Under the pieces are notes generated by a model. The model had not been told where the DNA came from. It did no database searches and saw nothing but the letters and a program-made list of their open reading frames with translations. A program made the position numbers and the translations under genes. From Amyloporia xantha (taxonomy: Eukaryota > Basidiomycota > Agaricomycetes > Polyporales > Adustoporiaceae), in contig JAYKKR010000028.1 in NCBI GenBank assembly GCA_036971615.1, forward strand, positions 496,001-560,000: 64,000 nt of DNA, read 5' to 3'. Every line of letters begins with the position of its first letter. Within the stretch, counting starts at the first letter, position 1. Below are positions 9,446-30,147 of this stretch, piece by piece.

Positions 9446-9475
9446 TACGCCCTCCGGCCATTGCGCAGTAATGGT

Positions 9476-10255: not shown

Positions 10256-12815
10256 TAACCTCGAGTGATGGTTCTCGAGATTGGGATGTTGTACGCCATG
10301 AAGGTCTTCCTTTTATACGATTTCTTCGGCATGAGTCAACTCCCAGAGCCCCGACGAAGACCTGAGGATCCGCAGGTGGGACCCCACTTCCGGGCGGGAG
10401 TTTAGTAACATCCGCAACGCCTAAAGCTTCAGTGTAGGTTTGCAGAGCGGGTAAGTGCTCTATGGAGGTGGCAGGTATCCACGTCCGGTCACCCGACTTC
10501 CACAGTGCCTCGACAATAGCATCGACACCCGTTCCGTAATGTGACAAGATCCGGTCCACGGCCCATTCATTGTCACGATCCTCCAATTCCGCAATCTGAC
10601 TGTCAAGCCGTCCTGGGAAGAGCCGGTCATCATTCGGCTCATGTATTCGGAGCAGACTTGCATGGAATACGTTATGAATCCCCCGCCGCTTCAGGTTTGG
10701 AGGTAATTCTAATTGGAAAGAGCTATTCCCGTAGTCTCTTAGAACCCGATAAGGTCCAATATACTTTGGAGACAGCTTGCGAGCTAGTCCCTTGGGTAGA
10801 GATATGTTCTTTGTGGAGATATACACCAAATCCCCAACAGCGAAAGGAGCTGGTCTCCGCCTCCTATTCGCATCCCGAGTCTGTTTTACACGAGCGGCTA
10901 TGATGCTATCATGTGCAGACATTATCGCTCCTTTTACTTTCTGAGCGTAGGCCCGAACCCCCGGATATTCATCTGATCCCGCGCCTTCCCAGATCATTGA
11001 ACGCGGCATACGGCCGGTGTTCAGGAAGAACGGAGCATATCCGGTGCTCTCAGATCGAGCCAGGTTGATCGCAAACTCAATTGCGGGTAGTTTCATAACC
11101 CAGTCCTTCTGACTAGGCCCAACACATTGCCGCAACATCTGGGTCACAGTCCGGTTGGCTCGCTCAGTCGAGCCGTCTGATTCCGGATGGTAGGCACTGG
11201 ACATACGGAGTTCCACTCCCATGAGCCCATGTAGATGAGTCCAGAACTGACTTGTAAACAAGACATCTCGGTCACTTATTATGGCCTTTGGCAGCCCATG
11301 ATGACGGTATACTTCCGAGAACACAAGCTCCGCGATCTGGCGAGCAGTATAGTCTGTCCTGCTCGGGACAAGATGTACCATTCCAGAGAGTAAGTCAATC
11401 ACCACTGTGATCGAGTCATACACTCCGTCTCGGTCCTTCGACTCAGGCAAGGGACCCACGAAATCCATTCCGATCGCGTCCCATGGAGAGCTCGGAACGG
11501 GTAATGGATTCAGTAATCCGTAAGGTTTCTGGTTTGAAGGCTTACTCCTCTTGCAGGTCATGCAAGAGTCGCAGTACTTCTGAACGTCAGTGCCCATGGT
11601 CTTCCACCAGACATGGTCCTTTAACAGGCCGTGTGTCTTGAATGCACCCAGATGCGCCAACAACGAGTGCGCGTGCGAGATTACAATCTCACGAGAGCTC
11701 CGTTCATTGACGAGAACGTTCGGTATGCACAGTAACTCACGTCCTCGCTCTCGGATGACGATAAGTCCCTCTGTGACGGCGAAGTTCTTATAGTGCTTCG
11801 GATTATCGACAATGATCCGGAAGAATGGATCCTCCGTGTACCGTCCTCTCAGGTGAGCAACTAGGTCCAAGCCGTCGCCTCCAGACGCTATGTACCCAAG
11901 AAACTGACTGCTAGTCGGAGAGGGGGTGGTGTCGTCGTTCGCCGTGCCCGCTCTCTCCTCGGCGTTTCCTGATTGAGCAGGCGCTTTGTCAGCGCCAAAC
12001 GCGCCGTTCTCAGGACCGTGCGCTGGCACACGGTCGTTCTCACCACCACCATCTTCGCCCGCGCCCTCCAGAGGCAACACGCCCTCCGGATGCAACACAG
12101 GCTCGAGTGCTAGCCCACCGTCTCCCGGTGAGTACAGTGCTCCGTCGAGAGTGTCCTTTGCTGATAGACTGGGAGACTTCTGTCCTAGGTCCCCGCCCTC
12201 CTGTCGTCCTCCACGGGGCCCGTGAAGAACGACACGACGAATTCGTTTCGCGAACTCGCGAGACGTCTCAGGGCGTCCCGACTCCGCGGGCAGCGCCGCC
12301 CGCGAACGAACATCCCTTCGCGCGCCGTCTAGGAGCGCGTCGTCCCCCGCCTGTCGTCTCGCACCGCCATATGGCGCTGTCGCCTGACCGCGCCTGCGGG
12401 AGTGCGACGCGACAGTACGCATCGGATGGCCAGCGCGCACCCGCGCCGACGCAGCCCTCGGCTGACCCGCTACAGGCCCAGCCGTCGACCCCGACTCGGG
12501 AGCCAGCGCGGCCGCCTCCCCACGCCGCGCGGGCGACCCAGAGTGGTCTCGCGCCAGCGCTGTAGTAGGCAGTTGTGCCAGCAAACGCGGCCCGCTTCCC
12601 GCAACAACCTGGGCAACAGCGCGCGCCGCGCCCCCGGATCCGTCTCGCGCATGACTACGGGTGCGCACCGCCATCGCCTCTATCCCCGTGAACACCGGTT
12701 GCGAGACAGGCACGCGAACCAGCCTTTCCGCCAGGCGTTCGTCCTCGTCGTACTGCGTGTATTCGGACGCGGCGCGCACCGTGCCCGGCGCGTCCGACGA
12801 GTATAGCCGCGAGAG
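10256..12815 (-). CDS. Element 1 pol, integrase part (frameshifted from RT)
   Basis: The open frame actually runs 12,866-9,441 on the minus strand; the functional part ends near 10,300. After a low-complexity linker it shows the integrase zinc finger (HAHSLLAHLGAFKTH ... CDSCMTCKRSK) and the D,D35E core: MDFVGPL, ISDRDVLF and the Glu in STERANRTV. A GPY/F-like C-terminal module (KLSPKYIGPYRVL ... RRGIHNVFHASLLR) follows. A short tail with DRTWIPATSIEH resembles a degenerate chromodomain-like end and is not a clear chromodomain. The frame joins RNase H only through a shift at about 12,808-12,818, where the typical LADALSRL motif is broken. Confidence 0.85.
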
Positions 12816-14480
12816 CGTCGGCGAGTACGTTCTCCACGCCGGGCACATACTCGACCTTGAAATCATATTCGGCGATCTTCTCCAACCAGCGAGCTTGCCT
12901 CCCAGACAAATTCTTCTGAGCCACCAGATGGATGAGACCCTTGTGGTCAGTTAACCAGGTGAAATGGCATCCCAACAGGATGTCTCTATGCCGCTGCATA
13001 GCTTCGACCCCCGCTAACATCTCTATCTCGTGGACAGGATAATTCATCTGGGCCGCTGTCAGCTTCGCAGAGAAAAACGCTGCCACTTTTGCCTTCCGAA
13101 AGTCATCTCCCTGTGCCACTACGCCGGCCACCCCGCCGTGCGATCCATCCGTGATCAGCCAAATGCGTGGTGCGCTCGCCGCATAGTCCAGGGGCACACG
13201 ATGATGGTCTCGATGCGCCTGCACAAGGCGCTTAACCTCGTCGAAAGCTCGCTGGTGCGTGTAGTCCCATTTGAAGCTCGACTCAGATCCCGTCAACGAA
13301 GCTAAGATCCCCATAGGGATTCGCACCATAGCAATATCGTCGGCAAGATATCCCACAGACCCCAAGAAACCCCTGAGCAGTTCCTTGTTAGTGGGGACCT
13401 TCCAGGCCACCACTGAGTCAACCTTGCCGGGATCCATCCGGATCCCACCCTGATCAACTATGCGCCCCAAGACCTTCATCTCCGCGCAGAGAAACCGAAG
13501 TTTAGACGCACTAAGGTACAGCTCTTCCTTCCGGAGGACATCTATCACTGTCTTGACATGGCTAACATGCTCATCCACAGTGTCCGAATAAATGATGATA
13601 TCATCGAGATAGACATCCATAAAGGTGGAAATGTACGGCCCGAAAATGTGATTCATTAAAGACTGGTATGTCGCCACGGCATTGCAATCCCCCTGCTGTA
13701 GGACCAGACTGACCATAGTCCCGTCAGGAGTGGTCATAGCCGTACGCGAGACGTCCTCCGGCCTGATACGAATTTGTTCATAAGCATCCTTGCCGTCAAT
13801 GAGGGAGCGGTAGGGCTTCCGCGCGGCACGGCGCAAGATCCCCTCCATATCCGGCAATGGCGACGCGACCTTGTGGGTGTTCGCGTTGCGCTCGCGCAAA
13901 TCGCACACCACCCGCAGACGCGGCGGCACGCCGTTGACGCCTGTCCCAGGCTTCTTTAATAACAACATCGGAGCTGCGTTGCGTGCATTCGTCATACGCC
14001 ATCGCCCGCTCACGAGATAGGCATCCCGTTTCTCGCACCACAGTGCACGCAGTGCGTCAGGGCACTTGGATGGACGCCATGAATAGACCTTCGTGTCATC
14101 CTTCAGGGGGATGGCATGGTTGATCTCCCGCAGGGGTGGCAACGGCGAGTCGCTCGCTTCTTTGCAGATAGGAGCCGCGTACTCACGCAGCTCCCGCCGT
14201 GCCAGTTCCAGATGTTCATCCAAAACGTCGGCTGCCCGCGATTCGAGTACTCGCAGCTGCTTGCCCTCTAGTGGCAGAGCATCTGCACTGCCTATTTGCA
14301 CCGTGGTTGGGTTCAGCCCAATTGAGATCTTGTGTTGGAAGAAGAACGGCGTGCCCAATATCAGGTCATAATTGAGTAAGTTGACAACGTCAAAGTACCG
14401 TTGACCACGGATGGCTTGGTAGCCTAACTCAGCATTGCAGCCGGAGTTAATCTTCGCACGAGATCCCTGCACCGCCAAGT
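12810..14480 (-). CDS. Element 1 pol: protease C-terminus, reverse transcriptase, RNase H
   Basis: Begins within the protease at the nested insertion (LILGTPFF is the protease flap-to-end region). It continues through reverse transcriptase: LRVVCDLRERNANT, SLIDGKDAYEQIRI, MDVYLDDIIIYS with the YLDD catalytic box. RNase H follows (PRIWLITDGSHGGVAGVV, HEIEMLAGVEAMQRHR, LTDHKGLIHL). The reading frame is exactly continuous with the protease half at 26,134 once element 2 and one CAAGT are removed. At about 12,810 the LADAL motif runs into a wrong frame, and the frame terminates at 12,655. The break lies in a CT-dinucleotide run, consistent with a 2-nt slippage loss. Without frameshifting the product lacks integrase. 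Confidence 0.9.
14476..14480. repeat. Target-site duplication of element 2 (CAAGT)
   Basis: CAAGT directly precedes the left LTR and is repeated directly after the right LTR at 26,129-26,133. Removing 14,481-26,133 restores an uninterrupted protease frame of element 1. Confidence 0.95.
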
Positions 14481-15530
14481 TGTTAAGAACCAGGGTAGTA
14501 CTAGTACCTAAGCTCGTATACCGGTAACGGATAGGATAATAAAAATACTTAGACTGTATGCTTGAGTCCTAATGGCTAGTTAGGAGTGGAATGCCGGTAT
14601 ACCAAGTAAGAAGTATAAGACCGTAGGGTCTTATGTTAGAGATTGGCGTGAGCCTAAGAGTATCGCTCAAGACCGAAGGTCGTTAGGTTAAGACCGACTT
14701 AGAGAGATACCGCTTATGTTCACGCAGAGATAAGGTTTAAAGGTAGAACTTCCTAAACAAAGATAACTCAAATCCTTCGCAAGTATTGTTGCCAGACCAA
14801 GGGCTTTAGGTAGCGCGAAGCAATACCGAAGACCGCTACTTAGCGCGAAGCTATAAGTAGTTTGTCAAGTCTGGGATAGATCTCTTTACCAGCGCGTAGC
14901 TATGGTAAGATCTACAATGATATGTGAAGGAGACAAGGTCTCGTTGTGCTAAGAGCTCAGAGGTAAAATAGATTGCTTGAAACCGAAGACCGTCGGTCTT
15001 CTTAAATACAAGTGAGAAATGCTAGAACCTTCTAAACATGCGTAGTCCGTACTTCTACAATACACTGCCCAATACCTGTGCATCTATTGTTCTCTACGCA
15101 CTGCCTTGAATACTCACTGAGACCGCGCTGCTATCCTCGTGTGGCGGAGTGGCGCACCTCGGGCATTCATCGGTCTTGCCTCGGTCTTCCTCGATCCATA
15201 AGGTGAGATCGGTCCGCTCTCCGTAGGTCGGATCGTGCTACCGGTCCTCGAGGTGTTTCACGGGACTCGACCTCTCACGCGAAGTGTGGGCGTTTGTGGG
15301 TCCCGAGGATCCGCTTTCTCTAAGAAGGAAATGGAGGACTACCCGTTGAGCGGGAGACCGAGTCATAGTCCCAATGAGTATCGGTTTCACACGCAAAGTA
15401 TAGGTGCTCGCGGGTCCCGATGATCCGCGCGGTCTTGAAGGGTAGTGAAGGACTACCCGTTGATGGAAGACCGAGTCCTTTCTTGGAAAGAACTCGATTA
15501 TAAGAAGGCCACATCGGGATATCCATAACA
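14481..15530 (-). repeat. Element 2 3' LTR (1,050 bp)
   Basis: Contains twelve AGACCG/CGGTCT hexamers, starting at 14,618, 14,670, 14,691, 14,830, 14,987, 14,994, 15,120, 15,171, 15,182, 15,355, 15,430 and 15,468. About 0.5 would be expected at equal base frequencies. A plus-strand TTATAAGAA at 15,498-15,506 lies 79 nt before the ATG of the antisense gene at 15,580. Confidence 0.95.
15498..15506 (+). promoter_or_regulatory. TATA-like box inside LTR facing the antisense gene
   Basis: TTATAAGAA lies 32 nt inside the LTR edge and 79 nt upstream of the ATG at 15,580. The antisense gene could therefore be driven by LTR sequence. The same box in the other LTR points into element 1. Confidence 0.5.
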
Positions 15531-15532
15531 TA

Positions 15533-15543
15533 GCCCCCCCAGT
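15533..15543 (-). promoter_or_regulatory. Element 2 polypurine tract
   Basis: On the minus strand, a run of seven G preceded by ACT lies three bases from the 3' LTR start (TGTTATGG). This is the expected position for plus-strand DNA priming. Confidence 0.6.
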
Positions 15544-15579
15544 CCGTCACTATCCTCTTCAAGACCGTCTATACTCACC

Positions 15580-16864
15580 ATGTCCTTGCTCTCCCTTCGC
15601 GACATCCCTGAAGAGTCTATTCCGGACCACTTCGAGATTCCTCCCGTCCCCTCGCGTTGGACTCCGGATCTTTTGAGAGCGTTTGAAGCGGCCCTTCATG
15701 AAGTTCTTCAGCCCGAACGGTATGAGTGGACTCTAATCGACGCCATACACCGCGCTTTCATGGTAAGCAGAATTGATTTCCTAAAAACCCTGCTAACGTC
15801 GGTCGGTTTTGTAGAATGACGAGATTTTAGATTCCCTCGAGGAGCAGCCAGAAATGGAACTGCCTCCAATAATGGACGCTCTGACGGTCTGGAGATTAGA
15901 CCTTGAAGACTTACCGCCCACTTATCCCGCCTACCTCGCGTCGCTAAACATCATAGACGCGGATCCCGAGTATTGGCTAGGTAAGCATTCATCCTCTTGA
16001 ATTATTGCGCTAATGCCCTTCTTATTCCGTTGCTTAGTGGCAGGAGAGCACGATCATATCGAGACCGACGCGCTTCACGAAGCGGTAGACATGATGGCGA
16101 GCGTAGGTACATTTCAAGACCTTTGGAATGATTACTGACTTAGAGCACGACTTCAACAGTTTGAAGATGACCGTCGCTGTGATAGGTGCAAGACCGCCGG
16201 TCTTGAAGTGTGCGAGATCATGAGGCCAGGAGGGGCCTGCTCCCATTGTAGTCAGCGGAAGCAGAAGTGCTCTTTGAGCACGGGGAGAGGCCGCTACCGT
16301 CGTCGAACAGGCGAAACAGTCGGTCTTGCTGTGGCTCCTCCAGACCGCGCCTTCTCCACCTCCTCCAAGCGTTCGAGTAAGTAACTTTGAGCTTGATTTC
16401 CCCTCACAGGCTGACGTTCCTATTACTCAGTTTCTCCCTCCGAGCGGTCTAGTCGCTCTAAGCGGTCTCGAAGGACCGTCAGGTCGTCTCGTGCGACGAC
16501 TCCTCCCGTTACGCCCCTCGATACCGACGAGTTCGAGCCGTGGGGCGGTATTGACGTCGTTGGCAGAGATTCTCCGATGGAGGAGGTTGCGGTTTCGTAC
16601 GAGCCTCCAGTAGTGAGTGAGACCGCGGGAGCTGGTCCGGGGCCCGCCACTCTGGCTCAGCAAGAACGTGCCCAGTTGGAGGCGCAAATTGCGGAGCTGA
16701 AGCGTCAACTGGACGAGCAGACCAAGCGACAACGGTCTAAGAATGCGGAGAAGAAGCGTCGTCAAAGGGAGAAGAAAAAGGGTCGTAAGAATGCAGGAGC
16801 CGGCAAAGGGAAAGAGGTAGACCGCGACGAAGAGGAGGCTGAGTCCGATGAAGGGGACTCGTAA
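15580..16864 (+). CDS. Element 2 antisense gene: Zn2Cys6-like cysteine cluster plus basic coiled coil (360 aa, 5 exons)
   Basis: The gene opposes gag-pol. The model closes exactly in frame: exons 15,580-15,762, 15,815-15,980, 16,038-16,106, 16,146-16,376 and 16,431-16,864 (1,083 nt). Residues 151-181 contain CDRCK...CSHCSQRKQKC with spacing C-x2-C-x7-C-x8-C-x2-C-x6-C. This differs from the fungal Zn(II)2Cys6 pattern only by seven residues instead of six in the first loop. A Ser/Arg-rich linker follows, then a heptad-like coiled coil (about 291-320, LEAQIAELKRQLDEQ) running into a Lys/Arg-rich segment and an acidic tail. This suggests a nuclear, dimeric, DNA-binding protein. Zn2Cys6 domains typically contact CGG triplets, and CGG is the core of the enriched hexamer; direct binding is inference. 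The exon 3 donor and exon 4 acceptor are the least certain junction. Confidence 0.75.
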
Positions 16865-17030
16865 AATAAGGACTTCATTTACGGCGTGGATGTACTTATC
16901 GGTTTCTTTCTAATGCATATTTGCGATGAATCAAGACCGATAGATGGGACAATAAATATCTCATGAATTGCTTGGTACAAACAAAACATATAGTCCACTT
17001 TCCAATCCTTCCTTTTAGCCGGTTTTGATT

Positions 17031-17825
17031 CTAAGCTTGGAGAAACCGACTGCCGCACTCTTGGTATTGATGGGTATTCCCGCATCTATCCCCCCCCACC
17101 AAAATGAAGTCCTCATCAGAGTCCTCCGAGTCGTCAGCCATCGTAGTGTCGTCGGTCTCGCTGGTTACCCTGTCGAAGTAAGGCGAGACCGGGTCATACT
17201 CTTCTGCACGACGGATGGAAAGGGTTGGATGGAGAATGAGGTCCCGACATTCATTGGCGGATTCGCCTTCTGTGAAACCGGGCCATCCAATGGATTTGTA
17301 GTACGAGACCAACTGGCGGTCGACGGTCTCGACACCTGTAAGACCGTTGGGGAGCTCCAGGCAGGCATGCACAAATTCCCCTACCCAGGAAACTGCGTCC
17401 ACTCCGTCTCGCTGGGCGTCGGCAACCGCAGTCATAGCTTCTTCTTCCGTTGAGAAGAATCGATTCAACTCGTTAAAACCTCCGTGGAAAGGGTTGGTAA
17501 GGAAGACCGGTGGAGACCGAATGCCTAGTTCGCGACAAGCGAGCTTGATCTGGGGCGTGATGGTGAACTGCGTATGGACGGTCTCCAAAGCAAGCCATAA
17601 GGCCGCTGCGAAACCGGTATGGATGATAGTGCGGTCAGGAAGACCGACTTGGGTGATATATATAGGGAAAGGCGGAGTCCAGGTGAAGAAATTTCCGACA
17701 AACATGGTCGAAGGGAAGTAAGGGTTGGTGACTTGAGCAATGGGGATAGTGGGGATGAGAGCGAGCTCTCGGGTAGCTGCAGTGAGGGCGGTCATGGAGC
17801 GGTCTTCGTCGAATACAGCGGACAT
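17031..17825 (-). CDS. Element 2 accessory ORF of 264 aa
   Basis: Function not recognised. It is a single uninterrupted frame downstream of pol in the same orientation, starting MSAVFDEDRS. A minus-strand TATTTAAG about 90 nt upstream (near 17,913) could be its own promoter. The sequence looks globular to about residue 200 (FFTWTPPFPIYITQVGLP, FAAALWLALETVHTQF, GFNELNRFFSTEEEAMTAV, DAVSWVGEFVHACLELPNG). It ends in an acidic Asp/Glu/Ser tail, with a run of eight G near the C-terminus that could hide a frameshift. There is no signal peptide or membrane helix, so it is not env-like. It carries many copies of the hexamer. Conservation in sister elements would decide whether it is a real gene. Confidence 0.6.
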   Translation of the reverse strand: MSAVFDEDRSMTALTAATRELALIPTIPIAQVTNPYFPSTMFVGNFFTWTPPFPIYITQVGLPDRTIIHTGFAAALWLALETVHTQFTITPQIKLACRELGIRSPPVFLTNPFHGGFNELNRFFSTEEEAMTAVADAQRDGVDAVSWVGEFVHACLELPNGLTGVETVDRQLVSYYKSIGWPGFTEGESANECRDLILHPTLSIRRAEEYDPVSPYFDRVTSETDDTTMADDSEDSDEDFILVGGDRCGNTHQYQECGSRFLQA

Positions 17826-18090
17826 GATACGAAATAGGCTGAGGAGTTGTTGAACTTCTGAAGGGAGTATAGAGGACAGATTGCTGTGAGACGGAGAAGA
17901 ACCGAACTCCTTAAATAATGGTTCTGTAAGGATATAGATATAGTCCTTGAAGACCGAACCAGCGGATAATTAACTTATTGTGCAGAGTGGCACGCTGGAT
18001 TGTGAGAGACCGCTAGGGAGAGGAAGGAGGGACAAACTTACTAGGAACGTCGGTCTTCGATCCACGAAACCGTATTGAGCCCGTCTTGCA

Positions 18091-21000
18091 TTATGCCACT
18101 GAGGTCTGGCTAAGCTTGCTAGCCACTACCGCTCGGTCTCGACGGTTTTGCCAAGCCTTCAGAATATCAGGAGCGTTCCGTAGCTGAGTGCGAGTTAGCC
18201 ACTCGTCGTATTCTGGACCATACCCGACGAAGCGAGTTTTGAACAGGGCGACTCTTCGTCCATTACGGCTCTTTCGAGACCGTTCCGCTATAATGGATTC
18301 CACCTCAAATTCTGGTAATTCATTGAAATCTTGTCGAGCAAGATCCTTGGTCGGTCTTGCCCCAAATTCAGGGGGCGACTCATGGTATCGCTCTAAGTGC
18401 GCAATGTTGATTACGGGATGAATACCGTAGGAAGCGGGCAGACGGACTTGATAGGCTACGGAGCTGATTTTTCGGATAATTTCGAATGGTCCGTCATACT
18501 TCATAAGGAGCTTCCTTCCGCGACCAGCTTGAGACCGAAGAAGCTCCAATGAATCCACATTGAGCACTACTTTGTCCCCAACCTCGAATTCGGTCATGAT
18601 TCTGCCGTTATTGTATGCTCGCTTCTGGTGAACTTGACCCAGATATAGGGCTTCTTGAGCGTCATGCCGGTCAGCCATAAAACCGTCTACCATATCTCCA
18701 GCCTCGGGGTGGCTTGTATCTGAGACCGATCGCGGTATTGAAGGACCGGGGTTCATTAATGTGCCCCCTGTGATCGGATGATAACCGCGGAGTAGATAAG
18801 CTGGGGAATACCCCGTGGCTGAGTGCGGACTCGTGTTATAGGACAATCGAAGACCGTCCAGGTGATCGGACCAATCGTCCCGAGATGGACCGATATAGGC
18901 TCGAAGAGCGATTTCCAAGGTTTGATTCAAGATTTCGGTCTGACCATCCGCTTGAGGATGGTATGACGTAGTAAGAGACCGTTCAATCTTCATGAGCCGA
19001 CAAACCTCCTTCCAGAAATCTCCCCTCCAGCGTACGTCTCGGTCGGAAATAATCTGCTTGGGAAGACCGTATTCACTGAAAATATGCTTGAACAAAAGAG
19101 CGGCGGTCTCCTTTTCCGTGATCCTAGTAGTGGTTGGTATAAATAAACCGTACTTGGTCAGCTTGTCCACTATCACCAGTATATTGTCGAAACCGCTGGA
19201 ATTGGGTAATTCAGGGATGAAGTCCATGGTGATAACCTCGAAAGGTCGTGTCGGAATTGGAATAGGTTGCAGAAGACCGACAGGCGCATGCCTCCGCGGT
19301 TTCGACTTCTGGCATACGTCGCAGGTGGAAACATATTTCTTGATATCGCGAGACATCCTGGGCCAGTAATAAGTAGAGGCGATCCGGTTGTAAGACCGAT
19401 GATAGCCTGAATGGGCCCCTTCCGTCATTAAGTCATGCGCTTCCTTCATTACTTGAACCCGAAGTTCCTCTGGTACGCAAAGCCGACTATTACCTTGGTG
19501 ATCCTCAAAATATACAAGTCCCTCTGGAGTGGTTGTGTATTGCGGAAATTCAGGATTAGACCAGTCGGTCTCGGTCTCCAAGTTCTTCTTGACGATCTTG
19601 AAGTGTTCATCCTTGCTATAAGCCTTCTTCCAAGTCTGGACCTCGCCAGGAGTAATACCGACTAGCAGCGAGTGCTTAGAAGATGCTTGATAGACCAAGC
19701 TCCAGGGGTTCTCGGTATCTTCTGAACTGTGAGTTGCAAACAAGACCGTCAGTTCCTCACCTTCATCTTCTTGGTCCAGGGTTTCGCAAAACCGAGAGGC
19801 TACCTTGATTAGCTTTTCTTCGAACTGTGGTCCTAATTCCTCATACATGTCTTTCAGCGGGTCCTCTAATTCCTGATGAAGCTGAAGAGCGTCTGTAGGA
19901 TCAGAGGAAGGACCATCCTGGTAAGGGATCCTCCGTCGAAGTCTCGAGATAGGATCTACGTTTGAGTGAACTCTTCCTGCTCGATGAATGATCTTGAGAC
20001 CGGGATATGCTGCGAAAACCGTTCCCCAGGTGAGTAATCGTCGGTTTACGTTCTGAAAGGTCCGACTCCAGGTTAAGGCTGCATGATCTGTGATAGCCAA
20101 TACCGAAGATCCTTCCAAGAACGACTGAAACTTAATTAACCCTTCCTTAAGAGCGAGGGCCTCCCGTTCTGTAGGAGAGTAATTGCGCTCGGCGGCTTTC
20201 AGAATGCGAGACCAATAAGCGATAACCCTTTCGACGTAGACCGTAGTGTCTTCAAAACGCTCCGCCCATTTACCAGGAGACGGTACATCACTCTCTGTGG
20301 GCGAGACCGAGACCACTAGGTTCGGTATTGGTTCCTTATTGTCAAACGCCTTCTTTAACCGTTCATAGATCTTGGTACCTCGCAAGTCCTTGATTAACAT
20401 GGGCTGAACCTGTTGAAGGATAGCGGCGAGACCATAATCACAGGCGTCGGTATATAATCGGTATGGTCTTCCCGGCATGGCATAAGCTCGAACTGGAGCG
20501 TTGACCAGGACTTGCTTACAAAGGTTAAAAGCTTCTTGGTGAACGTCAGTCCATTCCCACCCTAATCCTTCTTTCTTGAGAAGACCGAATAATGGAGCAG
20601 CAATCCAGGCGTAAAAAGGGATGTAAGACGAGAAGTATACCATCATCCCTAGGAAGACTTGCAGCTCCTTTACATTCCGTGGTTCCATGAGACCGACGAT
20701 AGCGTCTACCTTTTCCTTGTGGGTGGATATTCCGAGCCTAGACACCTTTTGTCCTAGCAGAAGTAGGGACTGATAGGCCAGGTGACACTTTCCTGGAGAC
20801 AAGGTGATACCGGCCTGTTCTATAGCGAGGAAGACCGAGTCGAGGTGCTTGACATGATCTTCAAACGAAGTAGAATACACCACAATATCATCGATGTATA
20901 CCAGAGCGAATATCCATAGAAATGGTGCCAGTATGTTCTGCATGACCCTCTGAAAGACACTTGGACCGTTCCTAAAACCGAAAGGCATACGCCGGAATTG

Positions 21001-24000
21001 GTGAAGACCGCGGTGAGTCCGAAAGGCGGTCTTCTCCTTATCCTTGTCTGCCATTTCTAACTGAGTAAAACCGGAGAGCGCATCGAGAGTCGACAGCCAT
21101 TGAGCACCGGTAAGGGCTTGTAGAATGTCCTCCTGTTTGGGTAGAGGAAACTCATCCGGTATTACTTGGTCATTTAACTTTCGAAAATCAATGACCATCC
21201 TTGGTTTCCCATTTCGGTATACGATAAATGCTGGAGCGCCCCAGGGGCTCTTAGAGGGTTCGATTACTCCCAGTTCTAGCCAAGTATCCATCTGCTTATC
21301 CATAACTTCACGCTTAGCCGGGGATGAAGGAAACGGAGGAAGGGAGACTGGGGTAGAATTCGGTTTCAATGGTACTTCAACCTTAGCGTTGTAATGTCCT
21401 AGCCGTCCATTGAGGCTGAACGCTAGCTTATGCTTTAGGACCACTTGTTCCAAAACCGAACGCTGGGAGTCCGATACATGGCTGCTGAAATCGACTTCTT
21501 TAAGAAGCTGAGACTCGTCGATAATCTCTTCTGGGGGCTCGCCGGTCTTAGGTCCGCCTTCCAACGGTTCCGTAGATGAAGGGTCTTCTACGGTGTCCTT
21601 TCCTCGACTGGTGATTAGGTCTTGAACGGAGCTGGAGACCGTCTGCCCTTGAACTAGGTGACTAAGGACGTCTATCGACCCGTTACTCTCTATTAATAAA
21701 CGAATAAACCGAGCATGGGTTACCGCCTTAGTCCAGGCGGTCTTACCCATGGTTTCTGATCGGTCTAGCCATTTATTCGGGTCGAATGCCTTGCCAAGGA
21801 CCTGTCCTGAAGGAATAACCATAGGATGCTTGCTGAAGTTTGCGACATGCAGCGCTGGTCTCTCAGAAGAGATGAACGAGTCTGTGGTTGCAAATACGTC
21901 GTCCATATTCTTATGAGTTTGAAAAGACCGTTCCACAAATAAAGTCTTCAAGTTGTCTTCGAAGGGCGCGTAGACCGATACTAACTTGGAAGATTCAGGA
22001 GGAATGATAACCATTTGCTTGGCTCTGACTAAGTTATCTTGAGACCGAGAGCGTTGTTGACGCTTTCGTCGCTGATTCTTCTTATGCAGTCTCGTCCTCC
22101 CCGTGCGGTCTCGCGATCCAATGAAGACCTTGAAGGCTTGTCCATGGTCATCCGTAAGGGAAGAAGTCGAATTCTCCACCTCTAGGGAGATGCCAGTGTC
22201 CGCAAACTGTATAGCGGTCTTACCGTCTTGCCTCAGGACCGAAAGTGAGTATTGGTCCGCGAAGTCGTTGCCTAAAATGAAAGGAGTCGTCATTCCTTTA
22301 ACGACATAAGCCTCGACGTTCATTTTAATGGACCGCTCTTCGGTCTTGAAGATCAAGTCGATAGGAACATAACCAGAAATCTTAGCTCGCCCAGTGACCT
22401 GTACCAAGTTGATCTTCTGGCCCGCCTTGATTTTGGGAGGATGTATCATCGCCTCTAAACACTTTGCAGAGATGAGAGTAATGTCTGATCCCGAGTCGAT
22501 GATGATATCCTGCATTTCGACCTCTCGGTCTCCTAAAAATCCGCGAGCCTTTGTAGCCTTTGATCCAAGGAAGGAACAACCGGGCGGTCTAGCAAGGTGT
22601 TTACGAAGTTCTAAGACCGGCTGGTTATCTAGGGAAACTGGCCCTTGGAAAAGAGACCGAAGGTTCTTAGTCGCTAAACGTCGACTGCGTCGTAGAGGAG
22701 GAGGAGCTGGGCGTGCGCTATAAACCGTGACGGATCTAGTTTCCTGAGTAGCCGAGGGGACTGCCTCTCCCTCCAGGGCCTTACCTGCTGCTTCGGTCTT
22801 GCTAGGCTGAGCAAGATATACAGAAGGTTCGGTAGACTGGAGGGATTTACGAAAATCCTGCTCGGTCTCCGATTCGACGTCTGACAATCCTAAGTAAGCG
22901 ATCTCATAGTCCTCCTCTGCGCGTAGTTCCTCTTCAGAAAGCTGGATAAAATTGGTTCGGGCAAACCGCTGTCCTTGTCGAGCGTGCTTACATTCGTTGT
23001 CCCAGTGGAAAGGACTATCACAGTGCCGACAAGGTCGCTTGCCTAATTCCTGCGGAGTTTTTCGAAGCTTAGACCGGTTGGAATCGTCTCGAGGAAACTT
23101 AGGTGGAGACCGGTTAGGAGTAGTGGAGTCCGCGGCATTAGAACGTGAATCCCTAAACCGATTTCGTCGGTCTTCAAAGGAGGGTTTCAACGGCTCCTTC
23201 GAATCAGTACCAAGGCCGACAAGGGTTTCTTCATAGTACTTAATGGCGTTCTGAAGATCGACGACCTTAGCATATAGGTGAGGGGATAGAACGGTGTTCC
23301 ACATGACCGGGGCTCCGTCAAGGATTTCACCAACCAATTCGGTTTCAGTGTAATCATATACGAATTCGAGCAGTTCCAACTTGCGAATGTAATATTCAGA
23401 AGGCAATTCCCTCTGATTTCCGCTGTCTCGGTATCGAGCACGGTTGGCTTTAGACTTTTGTCGGTCTAACCAAGCCTTGTTCATGTAGTGCTTTCCAATA
23501 GCTTTCCGCAAGGAGGTCCATCCTTTCTGAATGCGCTCTCGTTCATAACCAGGAAGCGAGAAATACCAGTTTTCCGCATGAGACCGAAGACGCCTAGGTA
23601 CGACGGATCCAAGCTGTTTGGCTATCATGGAAGATCCTTCAGCTATTTGATTGACCTTCATAATCCATCGAGCTAGAGTCTCGGTATCCCCATCCCAAGT
23701 GGGTACTACATCGATTTTCAGCTTGAGATCAAACCGAGGGACCTCTGCTGGTCTAGGATCATCGCTGTCTGAGTTGGAATTCTTCGGTTTTCGTTTCGAA
23801 GGAATAGGACCCGTCGGTTTCTTGGGAGGTCCGGTCGGTTTCTCATCATCTGAAGAGTCTGACGGATCGCTGGGATCATCTCCAGGAAACCGTCTCATAC
23901 GCGGTATTCCCCCTTTACCGAATAATTCCGTGATGCGGCGACCATGCCTGGCGGGCTCTGCTCGCTTCTTCTTGGCCTTCTCCCTCATTCCCGGGATCCT

Positions 24001-24378
24001 TGAGGTTGGGTCTTGATCCTCGTCGTGAGGGGGTTCTTCAGCCTCGGATTCTTGAGGAGCGGGAGCGGTGTCTACTAGAGCGGTTTCAGTCGGTCTTGCG
24101 CTATCCTCCATATGAGGCGGCTTGGGTCGGTTAGAAAACGGAGTTCGTCGAAGAGCGGAAGAAACAGTAGGGACCTCTGCTGGAGTTGTCGGTCTTGCGC
24201 TTCGAACTGACATATTACTATGCCGACTAGATACTCGGGGAGGTGTTTCATCCTCATCCTCATCGGGTACTACCTTCTGACGAATCCCTAACACCCTTCC
24301 TAGAAACATCAGAAAGGTCTCGACCTCCGCTCGGTATGCTACTCCTAGAATCTGAAAATCGTTGACTGAATAAACCAC
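18091..24378 (-). CDS. Element 2 Gag-Pol polyprotein with chromodomain
   Basis: One open frame of 2,095 codons. The frame is actually open upstream to about 24,660, so the listed start is not the real N-terminus. Gag capsid region lies at about residues 220-400. A CCHC knuckle CRHCDSPFHWDNEC is near 450. Protease has DSGSD near 626 and FILGNDF near 695. Reverse transcriptase includes MVIDFRKLND, FGFRNGPSVFQRVM and catalytic YIDD near 1,160. RNase H includes YRLYTDACDYGLA and LAITDHAAL. Integrase has an HHCC finger (CDVCQKSK) and a D,D35E core (MDFIPEL near 1,717, ISDRDVRW, QTEILNQT). A C-terminal chromodomain lies at about 2,010-2,070 (FEVESIIAE ... FKTRFVGYGPEYDEWL), which may target insertion to heterochromatin. 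All catalytic motifs are intact. Nothing suggests decay except the Gag frame change upstream. Confidence 0.95.
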   Translation of the reverse strand: MVYSVNDFQILGVAYRAEVETFLMFLGRVLGIRQKVVPDEDEDETPPRVSSRHSNMSVRSARPTTPAEVPTVSSALRRTPFSNRPKPPHMEDSARPTETALVDTAPAPQESEAEEPPHDEDQDPTSRIPGMREKAKKKRAEPARHGRRITELFGKGGIPRMRRFPGDDPSDPSDSSDDEKPTGPPKKPTGPIPSKRKPKNSNSDSDDPRPAEVPRFDLKLKIDVVPTWDGDTETLARWIMKVNQIAEGSSMIAKQLGSVVPRRLRSHAENWYFSLPGYERERIQKGWTSLRKAIGKHYMNKAWLDRQKSKANRARYRDSGNQRELPSEYYIRKLELLEFVYDYTETELVGEILDGAPVMWNTVLSPHLYAKVVDLQNAIKYYEETLVGLGTDSKEPLKPSFEDRRNRFRDSRSNAADSTTPNRSPPKFPRDDSNRSKLRKTPQELGKRPCRHCDSPFHWDNECKHARQGQRFARTNFIQLSEEELRAEEDYEIAYLGLSDVESETEQDFRKSLQSTEPSVYLAQPSKTEAAGKALEGEAVPSATQETRSVTVYSARPAPPPLRRSRRLATKNLRSLFQGPVSLDNQPVLELRKHLARPPGCSFLGSKATKARGFLGDREVEMQDIIIDSGSDITLISAKCLEAMIHPPKIKAGQKINLVQVTGRAKISGYVPIDLIFKTEERSIKMNVEAYVVKGMTTPFILGNDFADQYSLSVLRQDGKTAIQFADTGISLEVENSTSSLTDDHGQAFKVFIGSRDRTGRTRLHKKNQRRKRQQRSRSQDNLVRAKQMVIIPPESSKLVSVYAPFEDNLKTLFVERSFQTHKNMDDVFATTDSFISSERPALHVANFSKHPMVIPSGQVLGKAFDPNKWLDRSETMGKTAWTKAVTHARFIRLLIESNGSIDVLSHLVQGQTVSSSVQDLITSRGKDTVEDPSSTEPLEGGPKTGEPPEEIIDESQLLKEVDFSSHVSDSQRSVLEQVVLKHKLAFSLNGRLGHYNAKVEVPLKPNSTPVSLPPFPSSPAKREVMDKQMDTWLELGVIEPSKSPWGAPAFIVYRNGKPRMVIDFRKLNDQVIPDEFPLPKQEDILQALTGAQWLSTLDALSGFTQLEMADKDKEKTAFRTHRGLHQFRRMPFGFRNGPSVFQRVMQNILAPFLWIFALVYIDDIVVYSTSFEDHVKHLDSVFLAIEQAGITLSPGKCHLAYQSLLLLGQKVSRLGISTHKEKVDAIVGLMEPRNVKELQVFLGMMVYFSSYIPFYAWIAAPLFGLLKKEGLGWEWTDVHQEAFNLCKQVLVNAPVRAYAMPGRPYRLYTDACDYGLAAILQQVQPMLIKDLRGTKIYERLKKAFDNKEPIPNLVVSVSPTESDVPSPGKWAERFEDTTVYVERVIAYWSRILKAAERNYSPTEREALALKEGLIKFQSFLEGSSVLAITDHAALTWSRTFQNVNRRLLTWGTVFAAYPGLKIIHRAGRVHSNVDPISRLRRRIPYQDGPSSDPTDALQLHQELEDPLKDMYEELGPQFEEKLIKVASRFCETLDQEDEGEELTVLFATHSSEDTENPWSLVYQASSKHSLLVGITPGEVQTWKKAYSKDEHFKIVKKNLETETDWSNPEFPQYTTTPEGLVYFEDHQGNSRLCVPEELRVQVMKEAHDLMTEGAHSGYHRSYNRIASTYYWPRMSRDIKKYVSTCDVCQKSKPRRHAPVGLLQPIPIPTRPFEVITMDFIPELPNSSGFDNILVIVDKLTKYGLFIPTTTRITEKETAALLFKHIFSEYGLPKQIISDRDVRWRGDFWKEVCRLMKIERSLTTSYHPQADGQTEILNQTLEIALRAYIGPSRDDWSDHLDGLRLSYNTSPHSATGYSPAYLLRGYHPITGGTLMNPGPSIPRSVSDTSHPEAGDMVDGFMADRHDAQEALYLGQVHQKRAYNNGRIMTEFEVGDKVVLNVDSLELLRSQAGRGRKLLMKYDGPFEIIRKISSVAYQVRLPASYGIHPVINIAHLERYHESPPEFGARPTKDLARQDFNELPEFEVESIIAERSRKSRNGRRVALFKTRFVGYGPEYDEWLTRTQLRNAPDILKAWQNRRDRAVVASKLSQTSVA

Positions 24379-24589
24379 CTCCTTGGACAGTCCTGTTTTG
24401 TCGAACTTAGGGAAAGGAGGAGGAGTAGAACCGCAAGCCTGAATGCGGTTTCCGTAGGTATAAGTAAGCTTTCCGAGTAAAGCGTTAAGCTTATTATAAA
24501 GATTAAGGTCTGGACATACTCCTATAATATCGTTATCGGAGGAGTATAGAATAGGGTTGCGTAGCAGTTGGTCTAGTAGATCTATTTCC

Positions 24590-25009
24590 TTATACCAATA
24601 CCGACTCTCCGTTCGAGATAGGTGCGTGCCATCGCGACCGTCTGGAAGAGTGTAAGGGGCGCTTTAAGTATTCTTGAGCTAGCAGGGTTGCGTCGTACCT
24701 ACGGCCAAATACTGCACCAAGTGGTCCGTCGGTGTTAGCAAGGTCGCGCAAAGCATTGGTTATCGGAAATTCCAAGGGGACCGAACTTACGTTGGTAAAC
24801 CGTACTGAATCGACCGGTCTTGCTCCTTTGACGGCGACAAGGTCGGTCTCGAATAGTGATTGATCCACGAGTTCCTCGTCTTCTTCGGAATTGTTTTCCC
24901 TAGGAGATGAACCTGGAAGGGGATGATCCGCTGGGTCATCTCGGTCTTGAAGACCTTGCTGATAAGAGGCGGCATCCTCGCTTCCTACTGCTACAAAGGA
25001 CATTGACAT
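24590..25009 (-). CDS. Element 2 Gag N-terminal frame (139 aa)
   Basis: Starts MSMSFVAVGS shortly after the primer-binding site and ends at 24,590. From about 24,660 downward a different frame (TLPDGRDGTHLSRTESRYWYKEIDLL) is open continuously into the long gag-pol frame. That frame and the end of this one (ALRDLANTDGPLGAVFGRRY ... EYLKRP) appear to be two parts of one Gag protein. The switch needs a +1 shift near 24,655-24,665, close to CCC TTA. It is either programmed +1 frameshifting or a 1-nt mutation. Confidence 0.6.
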   Translation of the reverse strand: MSMSFVAVGSEDAASYQQGLQDRDDPADHPLPGSSPRENNSEEDEELVDQSLFETDLVAVKGARPVDSVRFTNVSSVPLEFPITNALRDLANTDGPLGAVFGRRYDATLLAQEYLKRPLHSSRRSRWHAPISNGESVLV

Positions 25010-25060
25010 TGTTAGTGAATCTATACTGAAGGAAATGTGAGTAACTTTTCAAAAGGAAGT

Positions 25061-25077
25061 TCCCAGTGCGTCCACCA
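25061..25077 (-). promoter_or_regulatory. Element 2 primer-binding site
   Basis: On the minus strand, one base after the 5' LTR, TGGTGGACGCACTGGGA begins with the TGG complementary to a tRNA CCA end. This is the usual layout for tRNA-primed minus-strand synthesis. The tRNA species is not identified. Confidence 0.65.
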
Positions 25078-25078
25078 A

Positions 25079-26128
25079 TGTTAAGAACCAGGGTAGTACT
25101 AGTACCTAAGCTCGTATACCGGTAACGGATAGGATAATAAAAATACTTAGACTGTATGCTTGAGTCCTAATGGCTAGTTAGGAGTGGAATGCCGGTATAC
25201 CAAGTAAGAAGTATAAGACCGTAGGGTCTTATGTTAGAGATTGGCGTGAGCCTAAGAGTATCGCTCAAGACCGAAGGTCGTTAGGTTAAGACCGACTTAG
25301 AGAGATACCGCTTATGTTCACGCAGAGATAAGGTTTAAAGGTAGAACTTCCTAAACAAAGATAACTCAAATCCTTCGCAAGTATTGTTGCCAGACCAAGG
25401 GCTTTAGGTAGCGCGAAGCAATACCGAAGACCGCTACTTAGCGCGAAGCTATAAGTAGTTTGTCAAGTCTGGGATAGATCTCTTTACCAGCGCGTAGCTA
25501 TGGTAAGATCTACAATGATATGTGAAGGAGACAAGGTCTCGTTGTGCTAAGAGCTCAGAGGTAAAATAGATTGCTTGAAACCGAAGACCGTCGGTCTTCT
25601 TAAATACAAGTGAGAAATGCTAGAACCTTCTAAACATGCGTAGTCCGTACTTCTACAATACACTGCCCAATACCTGTGCATCTATTGTTCTCTACGCACT
25701 GCCTTGAATACTCACTGAGACCGCGCTGCTATCCTCGTGTGGCGGAGTGGCGCACCTCGGGCATTCATCGGTCTTGCCTCGGTCTTCCTCGATCCATAAG
25801 GTGAGATCGGTCCGCTCTCCGTAGGTCGGATCGTGCTACCGGTCCTCGAGGTGTTTCACGGGACTCGACCTCTCACGCGAAGTGTGGGCGTTTGTGGGTC
25901 CCGAGGATCCGCTTTCTCTAAGAAGGAAATGGAGGACTACCCGTTGAGCGGGAGACCGAGTCATAGTCCCAATGAGTATCGGTTTCACACGCAAAGTATA
26001 GGTGCTCGCGGGTCCCGATGATCCGCGCGGTCTTGAAGGGTAGTGAAGGACTACCCGTTGATGGAAGACCGAGTCCTTTCTTGGAAAGAACTCGATTATA
26101 AGAAGGCCACATCGGGATATCCATAACA
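25079..26128 (-). repeat. Element 2 5' LTR (1,050 bp)
   Basis: Same length and, as far as read, same sequence as 14,481-15,530. Short frames inside it are identical in both LTRs simply because the LTRs are identical; they are not treated as genes. CAAGT (26,129-26,133) follows directly. Confidence 0.95.
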
Positions 26129-26133
26129 CAAGT

Positions 26134-29100
26134 GCACAGGCAAGGGTTTTTCAAGTTCAAATGTTTTTACCCCTAACTGATGTGCCAATTTGGCAGACAT
26201 GAAGTCCGCTAAGGATCCGGAGTCCAACAACGCTCGCGCAGGATGCCCATTCACTTCCACCACCACCACAACGGGTTCAGGTATTATGCGACGAAAGTCC
26301 CTCGGAGTCCCGGCGTTTCGTTGCAAATGTAGGATGGGCTCATGCACAGCCCTCCTCGAAACAGCGTTCAGCTCTAAGAACCGTCCGCTCCGACTGGAGT
26401 ATACAAAGTCGCTCCATTGCTCGTCCCTACCGAACGCGCAAGGAGCTAACTTCTTTCGCACCTGCCGCGCATAGAAGTTGGCTAAGTCGAAATACCGGTT
26501 CCGGAGCAATGTCTCAGGAATCACAAGCTCAACCCCTAGGTACGCGTCGCGAACCTTAATACCAGTTCCATCAATGGTCCTGGTGCAGCGAAACCGTTCT
26601 GACCACGGATCGTCAGGATCTCCCTTGGTGGGGTGTTCGATTTCCTTCGTTAGAACAGCGGACACTTCCCGGGCAATCGAGACAGTCCCGGCTTTGGACA
26701 TGCCCCATTGCTCCGAGGTGGGCAGACAGTGAGGGTGCCCGAGTTGCTGCGCAACTTCTAGTCGGAACCACCAAGCCACATCGAACTCCTCATCCTCCAG
26801 ATGCTCCGCAGCAATGAGGAACTCTCCGTTAGGTGCGCCGTCCCACGCCACTGCGTAGAATTCATCTGACACACGCATCACATAGTAGATATCATCAGCT
26901 TCGCAACGCGTATCACTTCCCTCCGCAGAGTGCCTTACACAACAGTACGGCGCATGCTTCCGCAGAGCTCGCAGGGCGCTACTAGCATGCACATCCTCGA
27001 GAGCTGACGGGTACCGCCCTTCCCGTGTGGTGATGGGTAGCACAACATAGTCTTCCGACATATCCCTCCGCTGTTCCGCCAATCTCGCGAAAGGACTCGT
27101 AGGCGCTGTCCGTCCGTCATGCAAACTTCCCTCCCGCTGGTCCCTACAACACGGCGTGCTGAGCGAGTGGGGAGTGTCGATATGGCAACGACAGCCGTCC
27201 CCACTTCCTCGTTCGGCGGGATGTGTTATAACGTCGACATGATTCAGGCTGATCGCGTCCATTGGCGCAGTAGAGTCCACTAAGGTGCGAAGCTCATCTA
27301 CTGCCCCGAAATCAGGGTGAACGCTGAATGAGGTGAGTCCCGGAGCGCGGCCGCTCCGGTTAGACCTCACCTTGTGCATCTCGGGGCAGTTTCTACTCAT
27401 GTGCCCCGTCTGCTTACAAACAAAGCACTTCCCCGCAGCCTGCAGCTCAGCCCGCTCCTTATCCGACAACAGAGGGCGCGCCGTTACACGTTGCTGACTC
27501 GCTGCTGTGGAGGGACGAGGCCCATTCGACCCCCTCATCACACCGGCTCCACTCGCGGCCGCCCCATCTCCCCGGCGTGGCCGAGAACGAACTTGTTTCC
27601 GAGTGGGCGCGCGCTCACCCTCCACAGCAGAGGTAAACGGCAGTTTACCGCCCTTAGTTGACCGTCGGTCAGAAGACATGGACGGGCCGACGTTAGAGGC
27701 TATTTCCTCGATCTCTGCGGCGGCTCGAACGTCGTCCCAGCTAGCAGCGGTAGGAGTCAAGCCTTTACGCCACAATTCCCTCTGGATGCTGAAGGACAAC
27801 CCTGACCAGAGCTTGTCCACCCGATCACGTTCGGACCATACACCTGACATCTTCGCCAGACCATCAAGTTCGTGCACGAACTCACGCACGGTGCGTTCTC
27901 CCTGCTTACACCTATTGAATTTCGCCCTCATTTTTAAGCGAAAGTCAATAGGGAAACAGTAGTTAAATAGATCCATGAAAAGGTTCTTCAAAGTCCATGC
28001 CCAGGGTTTCTTAGACACCGAGTTCACGTAGAAGTCGTAAGCTTTCCCAGTGAGAAAATTCGACACCGTGATTGCGTGTCGTTTTCGTTCGAGCTCATAG
28101 CCTCGAATATATTCCGTGGCTTCCGCCATGAACTTATGAAACTTCTGTACATCCAGTGAGCCATCGTAAGGCTCGGGTTCCTTAGGTTTCAACACAGGGA
28201 CCCTGGAACGCTTCGACTTCTTCTTTTTCCTCCTTCGCCCCTCCCTGCTGTCTTCGGAGGAACTAGAAGGTTCTGACCCTCCTTCCGAACTCGAGTCGGG
28301 AGGGGAAGAAGGAGGGCTATGGTCATCGGAGTCTTCCGACACCTCACCTAACCTCTTCTCGAGAGTCCGAAATGCTCTACCCAGGTAACTTCCGGGCTCT
28401 ATTTCGGTGATAGGTTTTAGATAGGCTGAGACAGGCTTCTCACTCGCCTTGTCCTTGCTGCCATCTTCCAGCCGAACGGTCTTACCAGACCTCGTCCTGC
28501 TGTTGTGCGAAACAACTGAGGCAGTTGCGAGCTGCGCCCGAAGTGAAGCCATTTCTCGTTCCATAGCCGTGATACGTTCCACCTCGGGAGAGGGGTTTTG
28601 TTGCACGGCTGATGGGGCAGGCGCCGACGGACTAGCTGTCTGCGAAACTGCTGGCATAATGCCTGTTACAAGAGATGGGCCCGCCGCAGGCAGCAGCGTC
28701 TTCGTTGGCACAGCTCGTCTGGCCCTCCAGTATTCCAGAGCCTGACGTTGCTCTTCAACGCTTATTTCCTGGCCATTCTCGTCCAGAAGGCGTGACTGAG
28801 GGTTGGAAAAGGATTCAAGCTTTCTACGTTGAACTTCCACATCCAATTCCTCCGAAGCTATAGATACATTTCCCCAATTCCTGGGATCTACACCCTTCCC
28901 CTTCCCCTCTACAGGTATCCCAACATTACTAGGACCCCCTCGTTGCGAGTCAGATCTTTCTAGAGCTCGCTCCTCACGTATAGCCTGGAACCGTCGTGCG
29001 ATGCGATCGCGGTCTCCAGCACTCAACGCTTGCTCCGCCGCCTTCACTGTCTCGAAGACGGGAGCCGGGATAGGCGACGGGCCTATCAGGCGATTGACCG

Positions 29101-29539
29101 CCCTCGTGGATGACTCCCTAGCCAGGCTCGGGGAATCCATACTGCGGCTTCGCCGAGCATAGGAGACCTGCCGCCATCCCGGGTCTAGTTCGTTAGCGGC
29201 TTCCTCTAGCCTACTAACCCCTACCGTACTACTCGGTCGTTTAGGCACCGGAGTAAATGGTTGTGTTCCCTCCCGTAGCACGGGGCTAGGTGAGGAAGGT
29301 GTCACCGGAGCGACAGGCAGCGGTGACGGCGCGGGAGACACAACTCGACTGTACAAAAGTCCCGGTCGAACCGCGGCCGGCGACCTTGGTCGTGCGCTCT
29401 CCGTGCCTGATAACGAGTGCCCTCCCGGCACAGATTCAAGATTCTCCAATTTAGGTACTAGAAACTCACCTGGGACCGAAGGTTCGGTATCCCCGGGTAC
29501 AGAGGCGCGACGTGAGCGCAAATTGTACCGAGTAGTCAT
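26134..29539 (-). CDS. Element 1 Gag and protease N-terminal half
   Basis: Starts MTTRYNLRSRRASV. A long Pro/Ser/Arg-rich N-terminus precedes a retrotransposon gag capsid domain at about residues 460-600 (PYDGSLDVQKFHKFMAEATEYI, FNRCKQGERTVREFVHELD). A CCHC knuckle (CFVCKQTGHMSRNC) is near 705. A long spacer leads to a retropepsin with the catalytic triad in ARALLDSGSLADFMSAKL near 1,105-1,125. The coding sequence is cut after EKPLPVHL by element 2; in the present arrangement it reads a few LTR-derived codons and stops near 26,096. The continuation is at 14,480 downward in the same frame. Confidence 0.9.
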
Positions 29540-29722
29540 TCTAGGACAGAGTTGAAGAAACGATAGATTTCGAATGAAAGCAAAAGAATAGTCCTAAGAC
29601 CTTTTTGAAGCAAGTCGACAAGTCGGAGAGTCGAGTTGATCAGACCCGAGTAAGACCAGACAGAGTCGACAGCAGGAGAGTTTGTCGTAGTCGATAGAAA
29701 CCGCCTAAGACTGTCAAAAAGA
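29540..29722 (-). other. Element 1 untranslated leader
   Basis: Sequence between the 5' LTR and gag. It contains several GTCGA/AGTCGA repeats but no obvious tRNA-complementary primer site next to the LTR. Confidence 0.5.
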
Positions 29723-29999: not shown

Positions 30000-30147
30000 G
30001 TAAGTTAAGCGCAACTACCCGACGACCCTAACCCCACTGTGCCCTGTGTTTCTCCACTCGCGATTGCAGTGAAAGAAGTTGACGACGTCATGGCATCCTC
30101 GTCCGCGTCATGTTCCAGTAGACTCTGTCAACCCGCCCCAGCCTTCC

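Follow-up and report, generated by a model that had tools for sequence, protein, structure and literature searches.

Why should a retrotransposon be filled from end to end with one short DNA word? The question is raised by a 64-kb stretch of Amyloporia xantha contig JAYKKR010000028.1 (hereafter, the window), in which positions 14481-26128 hold one complete Ty3/gypsy-type long terminal repeat (LTR) retrotransposon, on the minus strand. The word AGACCG/CGGTCT occurs 119 times in the window, and 98 of these occurrences lie inside the element. A preliminary description of this DNA had noticed the excess and had taken a DNA-level function spread through the element to be its simplest reading. The analyses below strongly support such a function for the dispersed motif. 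They also add what that first reading did not contain: an antisense gene within the element that is a good candidate for encoding the motif's reader.

One hexamer saturates the element

One LTR plus the interior (14481-25078, 10,598 bp) contains 86 motif sites, in comparison to a mean of 6.7 and a maximum of 13 in 100 dinucleotide-preserving shuffles. With the two strands merged, AGACCG is the top-ranked hexamer of this region, and likewise of the LTR, the post-pol region, and pol, each taken alone. Only 3 sites (shuffle mean, 0.4) fall in the 700 bp that separate the pol frame from the 5′ LTR, and AGACCG is not the top hexamer there. The 90 distinct permutations of the letters of AGACCG have a median count of 4, and the three next best overlap AGACCG itself. 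The densities given in the preliminary description hold on recounting, with 12 sites per 1,050-bp LTR and 51 sites in positions 18,000-25,000.

Outside the element, the word is found at or below chance: 6 times in positions 37,000-64,000 (shuffle mean, 11.8), 9 times in 1-14,480 (8.4), and twice in 26,129-32,000 (4.1). The genome (46.8 Mb in 60 contigs) has 21,760 occurrences, or 0.46 per kb, versus 27,327 for the word read backwards. The element is nested inside another gypsy-like element, recognizable by identical 277-bp direct repeats at 9169-9445 and 29723-29999, and the outer element has no motif excess in the dinucleotide-shuffle comparison. The earlier impression of near-chance levels in host DNA agrees with these counts. 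The parts of the motif-rich element are as follows.

14481-26128, both strands: 98 AGACCG/CGGTCT sites, distributed over the two LTRs, gag-pol, ORF2, and antisense-gene exons
14481-15530, minus strand: 3′ LTR, 1,050 bp, begins TGTTA and ends TAACA, 12 motif sites
15531-15545, minus strand: polypurine tract with a run of seven Gs, adjoining the 3′ LTR (by eye)
15580-16864, plus strand: antisense gene with five exons, four GT-AG introns, and a 360-amino-acid product (splice enumeration)
17031-17825, minus strand: open reading frame 2 (ORF2), 264 amino acids, sense, downstream of pol, 9 motif sites
18091-24378, minus strand: gag-pol frame (Pfam matches and open frame), 46 motif sites
25062-25077, minus strand: probable primer binding site, TGG..., adjoining the 5′ LTR on its interior side (by eye)
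25079-26128, minus strand: 5′ LTR, 12 motif sites

The assignment to Ty3/gypsy is based on the two LTRs, which are 100% identical, the flanking 5-bp repeats CAAGT (target duplication), the primer binding site and polypurine tract, and the order of reverse transcriptase (RT), RNase H, and integrase. In gag-pol, whose frame stays open up to 24663 with a putative start within, RVT_1 (3.9e−29), RNase H, Integrase_H2C2, and SH3_Tf2-1 (55 bits; cut-off, 30) exceed their Pfam cut-offs, while rve (the integrase core), Chromo, and gag-asp_proteas are below theirs. The Chromo match, which follows the integrase and bears on membership of the chromovirus clade, is weak (2024-2079; 21.4 bits versus a cut-off of 25.1), and a zinc knuckle was spotted by eye. 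The interval from pol to the 3′ LTR holds two tail-to-tail genes, ORF2 on the minus strand and the antisense gene on the plus strand. ORF2 matched no known domain in a Pfam search. A search of 5.8 billion proteins yielded 901 candidates, of which just two are homologs (97% and 65%), both on short contigs.

The motif lies on both strands of the element, with site numbers of 47 to 39 in the window copy and 50 to 34 in C32, a copy of the sister family introduced below. Neither phasing nor even spacing of site positions was detected across the element, and a tandem-repeat listing gave no array within it: the sites are dispersed, dense in coding DNA, and about as dense in the body as in the LTRs. 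The four introns of the antisense gene (202 bp in total in the window copy) have no motif sites. Among related words, AAACCG (35 occurrences) and ATACCG (24) are also enriched, and ACACCG (5) is not; the enrichment of the first two looks like binding-site degeneracy. The preliminary placement of sites on both strands and in LTR and coding DNA was right, but the stretch it had called the leader (15,531 to ~18,000) is located downstream of pol, before the 3′ LTR, because the element is on the minus strand.

Codon usage does not account for the motif in gag-pol

On its own (minus) strand, gag-pol has 46 sites, compared with a mean of 7.8 and a maximum of 17 in 500 codon-preserving shuffles. When the bases at codon boundaries were held as well, the shuffle mean rose to 13.2 and the maximum to 23. 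The gag-pol sites use all six strand and frame registers (4, 11, and 6 on one strand; 10, 8, and 7 on the other), and CGG TCT occurs as Arg-Ser ten times in pol. That both shuffles fail to reproduce the observed number, and that six registers are used, argues strongly against a repeated peptide or a simple codon preference, as had been argued at the outset from the registers. In ORF2 taken by itself, observation and expectation are not distinguished by the stricter shuffle (9 sites versus a mean of 7.0 and a maximum of 10).

Selection maintains motif sites at synonymous positions

An LTR query gave at least 41 matches in the genome, belonging to a family A, to which the window element belongs (81-100% identical), and to a sister family B (74-75% in this search, with LTR identities of 71-74% between the families). 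Far from lacking the excess, the sister copies have nearly the same number of sites: 84 (C32), 86 (C60), and 85 (C17) in family B, in comparison to 86 (window), 86 (C25), and 87 (C58) in family A. Because the B copies hardly differ among themselves, A versus B represents one comparison, made fully with C32 and partially with C60 and C17. RT proteins of the two families are 99% identical, and the 5′ part of gag-pol has a synonymous divergence (dS) of 1.24 and a ratio of nonsynonymous to synonymous divergence (dN/dS) of 0.026. For ORF2, dN/dS against C32 is 0.083.

At this divergence, many sites have stayed in place. In two pieces that contain pol and the 5′ region, 24 of 31 and 13 of 18 motif sites are at the same place in C32, with 9.0 and 4.6 expected from ordinary hexamers in the same pieces (37 of 49 combined, versus 28% for ordinary hexamers). 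Sharing also exceeds expectation in the post-pol region (11 of 25; 3.2 expected), and weakly so in the LTR (5 of 12; 3.4 expected), for which the B stretch extended 87 bp beyond its LTR; within the B LTR proper, there are 7 sites in C32 and 8 in C60. Sites are also gained or lost: 12 are confined to A and 15 to B in the pol pieces, 14 to A and 12 to B in the post-pol region, and 7 to A and 4 to B in the LTR, so that 37 of the 64 pol sites present in either family are common to both. When hexamers found 8 or more times in pol are ranked by conservation z, AGACCG comes first (5.3), followed by words that overlap it.

This conservation is not a property of the codons involved. Among the 1,701 codons with unchanged amino acids, 70 of the 79 motif codons are identical between families, whereas 43.3 would be expected from the same codons elsewhere (no value above 61 in 20,000 binomial simulations). 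In the reverse test, the numbers are 75 of 83 versus 48.8. The CGG codon of the motif is kept in 8 of 9 cases, versus 24%. Selection thus acts on the motif at synonymous positions in pol. The rise in conservation spans mainly positions −1 to +6 of the word, both in pol and in a set of LTR and post-pol DNA that also contains exons, and gives an asymmetric footprint of ~8 bp, R-AGACCG-A (TCGGTCTY on the other strand), with A being rare at −2. Isolated flanking positions are also conserved (−3 in pol; −10 and −9 in the LTR and post-pol set). Codon-preserving shuffles, synonymous-site conservation in family B, and the near-constant number of sites (84-87 over six copies from the two families) despite gain and loss all support the DNA-level function that had been proposed for the whole length of the element.

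Several other features of these copies were observed. The word AGAGCG is modestly enriched, with 17 occurrences in family A, 6 in family B, and 12 in pol versus a codon-shuffle expectation of 3.1. Family A copies C25, C58, and C34 are 92.9-94.9% identical to the window element in their 3′ halves and 98.3-98.7% in their 5′ halves, as if the post-pol region had been exchanged or evolved faster. In copies C24 and C34, pol is interrupted by insertions, and 1-kb bins wholly inside these insertions have no motif.

An antisense gene encodes a candidate reader

The gene at 15580-16864 runs opposite to gag-pol. Splice enumeration in windows that we chose gave three solutions, differing only in the second acceptor; the longest gives the 360-amino-acid product. 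Its parts are the following.

15580-15762, 15815-15980, 16038-16106, 16146-16376, and 16431-16864, plus strand: exons of the antisense gene
16178-16270, plus strand: Zn2Cys6-type cluster, CX2CX7CX8CX2CX6C (pattern scan)

The predicted protein consists of an N-terminal part, the six-cysteine zinc cluster, a basic stretch, a likely coiled coil (by eye), a Lys/Arg-rich stretch, and an acidic tail. Family B copy C32 likewise encodes a 360-amino-acid product from matching exons, in a model whose third intron was found only after a wider search and whose last intron has two equally long solutions. Between the window copy and C32, the proportion of synonymous differences in the gene is 0.77 (saturated) and that of nonsynonymous differences is 0.30; the antisense protein is therefore under constraint.

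The CX2CX7CX8CX2CX6C pattern is present in both families, and its six cysteines are invariant in a four-row alignment. Assignment to the Zn2Cys6 class is based on several individually modest signals. Pfam Zn_clus (PF00172) matches exon 4 with 19.1 bits, below the cut-off of 21, and covers the second trio of cysteines, as though the two halves had changed places; the score is 12.0 bits for the whole family A protein, and the family B protein has no match. A weak fold model contains two short helices, each starting at a CX2C pair. In a Foldseek search of the PDB with this model, 19 matches had E values of 10 or less, and the top 17 of them come from zinc-cluster proteins (Ppr1, Pho7, Gal4, Put3, Hap1, AlcR, Leu3, and CBF3, whose matched chain we take to be a zinc-cluster subunit), none of them significant alone. 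Protein-database searches found no relative of the antisense protein, and the TRP28 domain (PF04195) had no match up to an E value of 1 in exons or spliced products.

Zn2Cys6 proteins typically read CGG triplets, according to the available parts of a study of Pho7 (PMC5559640). Because the conserved footprint includes CGG, this preference supports the antisense protein as the reader. A lysine four residues past the fifth cysteine (K41) is invariant in the four-row alignment and, in our own reading, is equivalent to Lys18 of Gal4. The same parts of that study report that Gal4 Lys18 contacts CGG, that Pho7 has Asn at this position, and that Pho7 recognizes TCG(G/C)(A/T)xxTTxAA, with a single CGG in some sites (PMC5559640). 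We consider it likely that the zinc-cluster protein of the element binds the AGACCG motif.

Only 50 bp separate the start codon of the antisense gene from the inner end of the 3′ LTR, and the promoter of this gene is therefore probably in or near that LTR. Antisense orientation would also explain why the gene retains introns: an intron in this orientation may survive the RNA cycle, while a sense intron should be lost.

Gene and motif occur together

All 16 genome matches of exon 4 are beside or between LTRs of family A or B. Three relatives in the same genome, C10, C16, and C12, have RTs 64, 69, and 60% identical to that of the window element. They were sampled as partial elements of 11.5, 7.0, and 6.5 kb, with ~3 to 4 kb after pol and LTRs not defined. 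In these stretches, motif density is 0.5 to 0.8 per kb, without excess, and neither the zinc-cluster pattern nor a match to ORF2 was found. Gene and motif are thus paired in two families, and neither the gene nor an excess of the motif was seen in the stretches sampled from the three relatives.

A proposed self-marking system, and its alternatives

We propose that the antisense gene of this Ty3/gypsy element, located between pol and the 3′ LTR, encodes a DNA-binding protein of the Zn2Cys6 type, and that this protein would recognize approximately R-AGACCG-A (TCGGTCTY), an asymmetric site with one CGG triplet. Selection would fill the element with such sites wherever protein sequence leaves room, and an integrated copy could thereby be coated along its whole length. 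The likeliest use would be sequence-specific anti-silencing of the element's own copies: the whole integrated element would be recognizable to its own protein and kept open, as VANC does for VANDAL elements of Arabidopsis, with LTR sites also serving transcription. That the element's own protein reads the dispersed sites, most likely for anti-silencing, seems to us rather probable. In its fullest form, the proposal is an independently evolved self-marking anti-silencing system, in which the product of an intron-containing antisense zinc-cluster gene coats every copy via ~86 dispersed, mostly coding sites, their number held by synonymous-codon selection while individual sites turn over. We offer this form tentatively, with confidence somewhat short of even.

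The word could instead be read by a host DNA-binding protein, with the element gathering sites to recruit an activator, a chromatin opener, or a tether, and the antisense gene doing something else. Zn_clus matches that exceed the cut-off number at least 21 in the genome, and host DNA-binding proteins that act on fission-yeast Tf elements provide a precedent. However, the genome has no excess of the word, which is rarer than its reversal, and the joint presence of motif and gene in two families, with neither in the sampled parts of the relatives, also counts against a host reader, which we regard as unlikely. Even if the reader is the element's own protein, it may be a plain activator or repressor of LTR transcription, with the body sites being a by-product. 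The 12 sites in each LTR and the probable antisense promoter there would fit such a regulator, but body sites match LTR sites in density, and it is the pol sites, at synonymous positions, that are more clearly conserved. A coat over the gene body, paid for at each site in codon freedom, exceeds the needs of a promoter and fits a chromatin-scale effect better. LTR regulation as the sole role is, in our judgment, improbable.

Whole-length coating could also serve ends other than anti-silencing. The protein might coat double-stranded cDNA, or integrated copies, for protection or import of cDNA, for tethering of integration to old copies, or for control of copy number. Unphased sites on both strands over the whole length would suit a coat on a DNA molecule no less than one on chromatin, and LTRs of families A and B lie within a few kb of each other at several places. 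Such clustering, however, may be ordinary for chromodomain elements, and the inserts in C24 and C34, whose wholly internal 1-kb bins have no motif, do not resemble self-insertions. We favor anti-silencing over these uses, which seem quite unlikely. Least credible is a mutation bias, or a simple codon or peptide bias, that produces the word. The repeated Arg-Ser codon pair in pol and the failure of the stricter shuffle to separate in ORF2 are what such a bias could claim. It is largely contradicted by the codon shuffles and the codon-matched conservation, as well as by the use of six registers and the excess in the LTR, and is highly improbable.

If the proposal is true, the action of one protein on a whole element becomes directly testable. 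The element would also show with particular clarity how a single sequence can hold two codes. More broadly, such a system would suggest a role for the antisense genes that gypsy elements carry downstream of pol, ahead of the 3′ LTR, and a reason for the persistence of their introns.

Other features of the window and genome

The outer gypsy-like element has a gag-like frame (26096-29539, minus strand) and an RT frame (12655-14478, minus strand) that flank the insertion. An open reading frame at 30414-31034 (plus strand) has an Ish1 domain over the cut-off, and one at 46776-47687 (minus strand) has a weak F-box match below it. Repeats of 160-300 nt with 60-92% identity at 38462-40011, 42494, 44693, 56454, and 60138 are perhaps a local gene family. 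Elsewhere in the genome, equal-score Zn_clus matches form pairs on different contigs (C45:205091 and C26:134349; C9:745322 and C35:247155; C21:386209 and C6:146995) and are possibly mobile or duplicated zinc-cluster genes.

Comparison with known systems

The element resembles fungal Tf-type gypsy elements in having a Tf2-1-like SH3 domain after the integrase and a weak chromodomain match. Relative to those elements, its ORF2, antisense gene, and saturating word are additions, none of which was seen in the stretches sampled from the three relatives. The antisense protein shares with Gal4, Pho7, AlcR, Ppr1, and Leu3 the six-cysteine pattern, a likely coiled coil further on, and a proposed site that contains CGG, but it differs from fungal Zn2Cys6 regulators in that its Pfam match is below the cut-off and falls on the second cysteine trio.

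The position of the gene has a counterpart in plants. In Retand and Grande gypsy elements, an extra antisense gene lies between pol and the 3′ LTR, and TRP28, encoded in the antisense open reading frame of Retand, a non-chromovirus, is predicted to bind DNA; tandem arrays are reported, and the available text of that report ties no word to TRP28 (PMC11963269). The fungal gene shares this antisense location, yet has a zinc cluster and four introns, and in the fungal element a weak chromodomain match lies at the end of pol.

VANDALs are Mutator-like DNA transposons, and their likeness to the fungal element is one of logic. In both, a mobile element is enriched in its own short word, and the reader, here only proposed, is encoded by the element (as described in the available portions of PMC5735166 and PMC10398659). 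VANDAL is the precedent that we found for an element carrying both word and reader. The analogy drawn in the preliminary description is apt in that logic, but the layout differs. In the portions available, the VANC words YAGTATTAY and AGTTGTCC/AC are located in tandem repeats outside coding DNA and were absent from the coding probes examined (PMC5735166, PMC10398659). In the fungal element, by contrast, the sites are not arranged in tandem arrays and fill coding DNA, and the candidate protein has a fungal-type zinc cluster. A fungal retrotransposon with such sites inside gag-pol would, if our reading is true, mean that the strategy arose independently of VANDAL.

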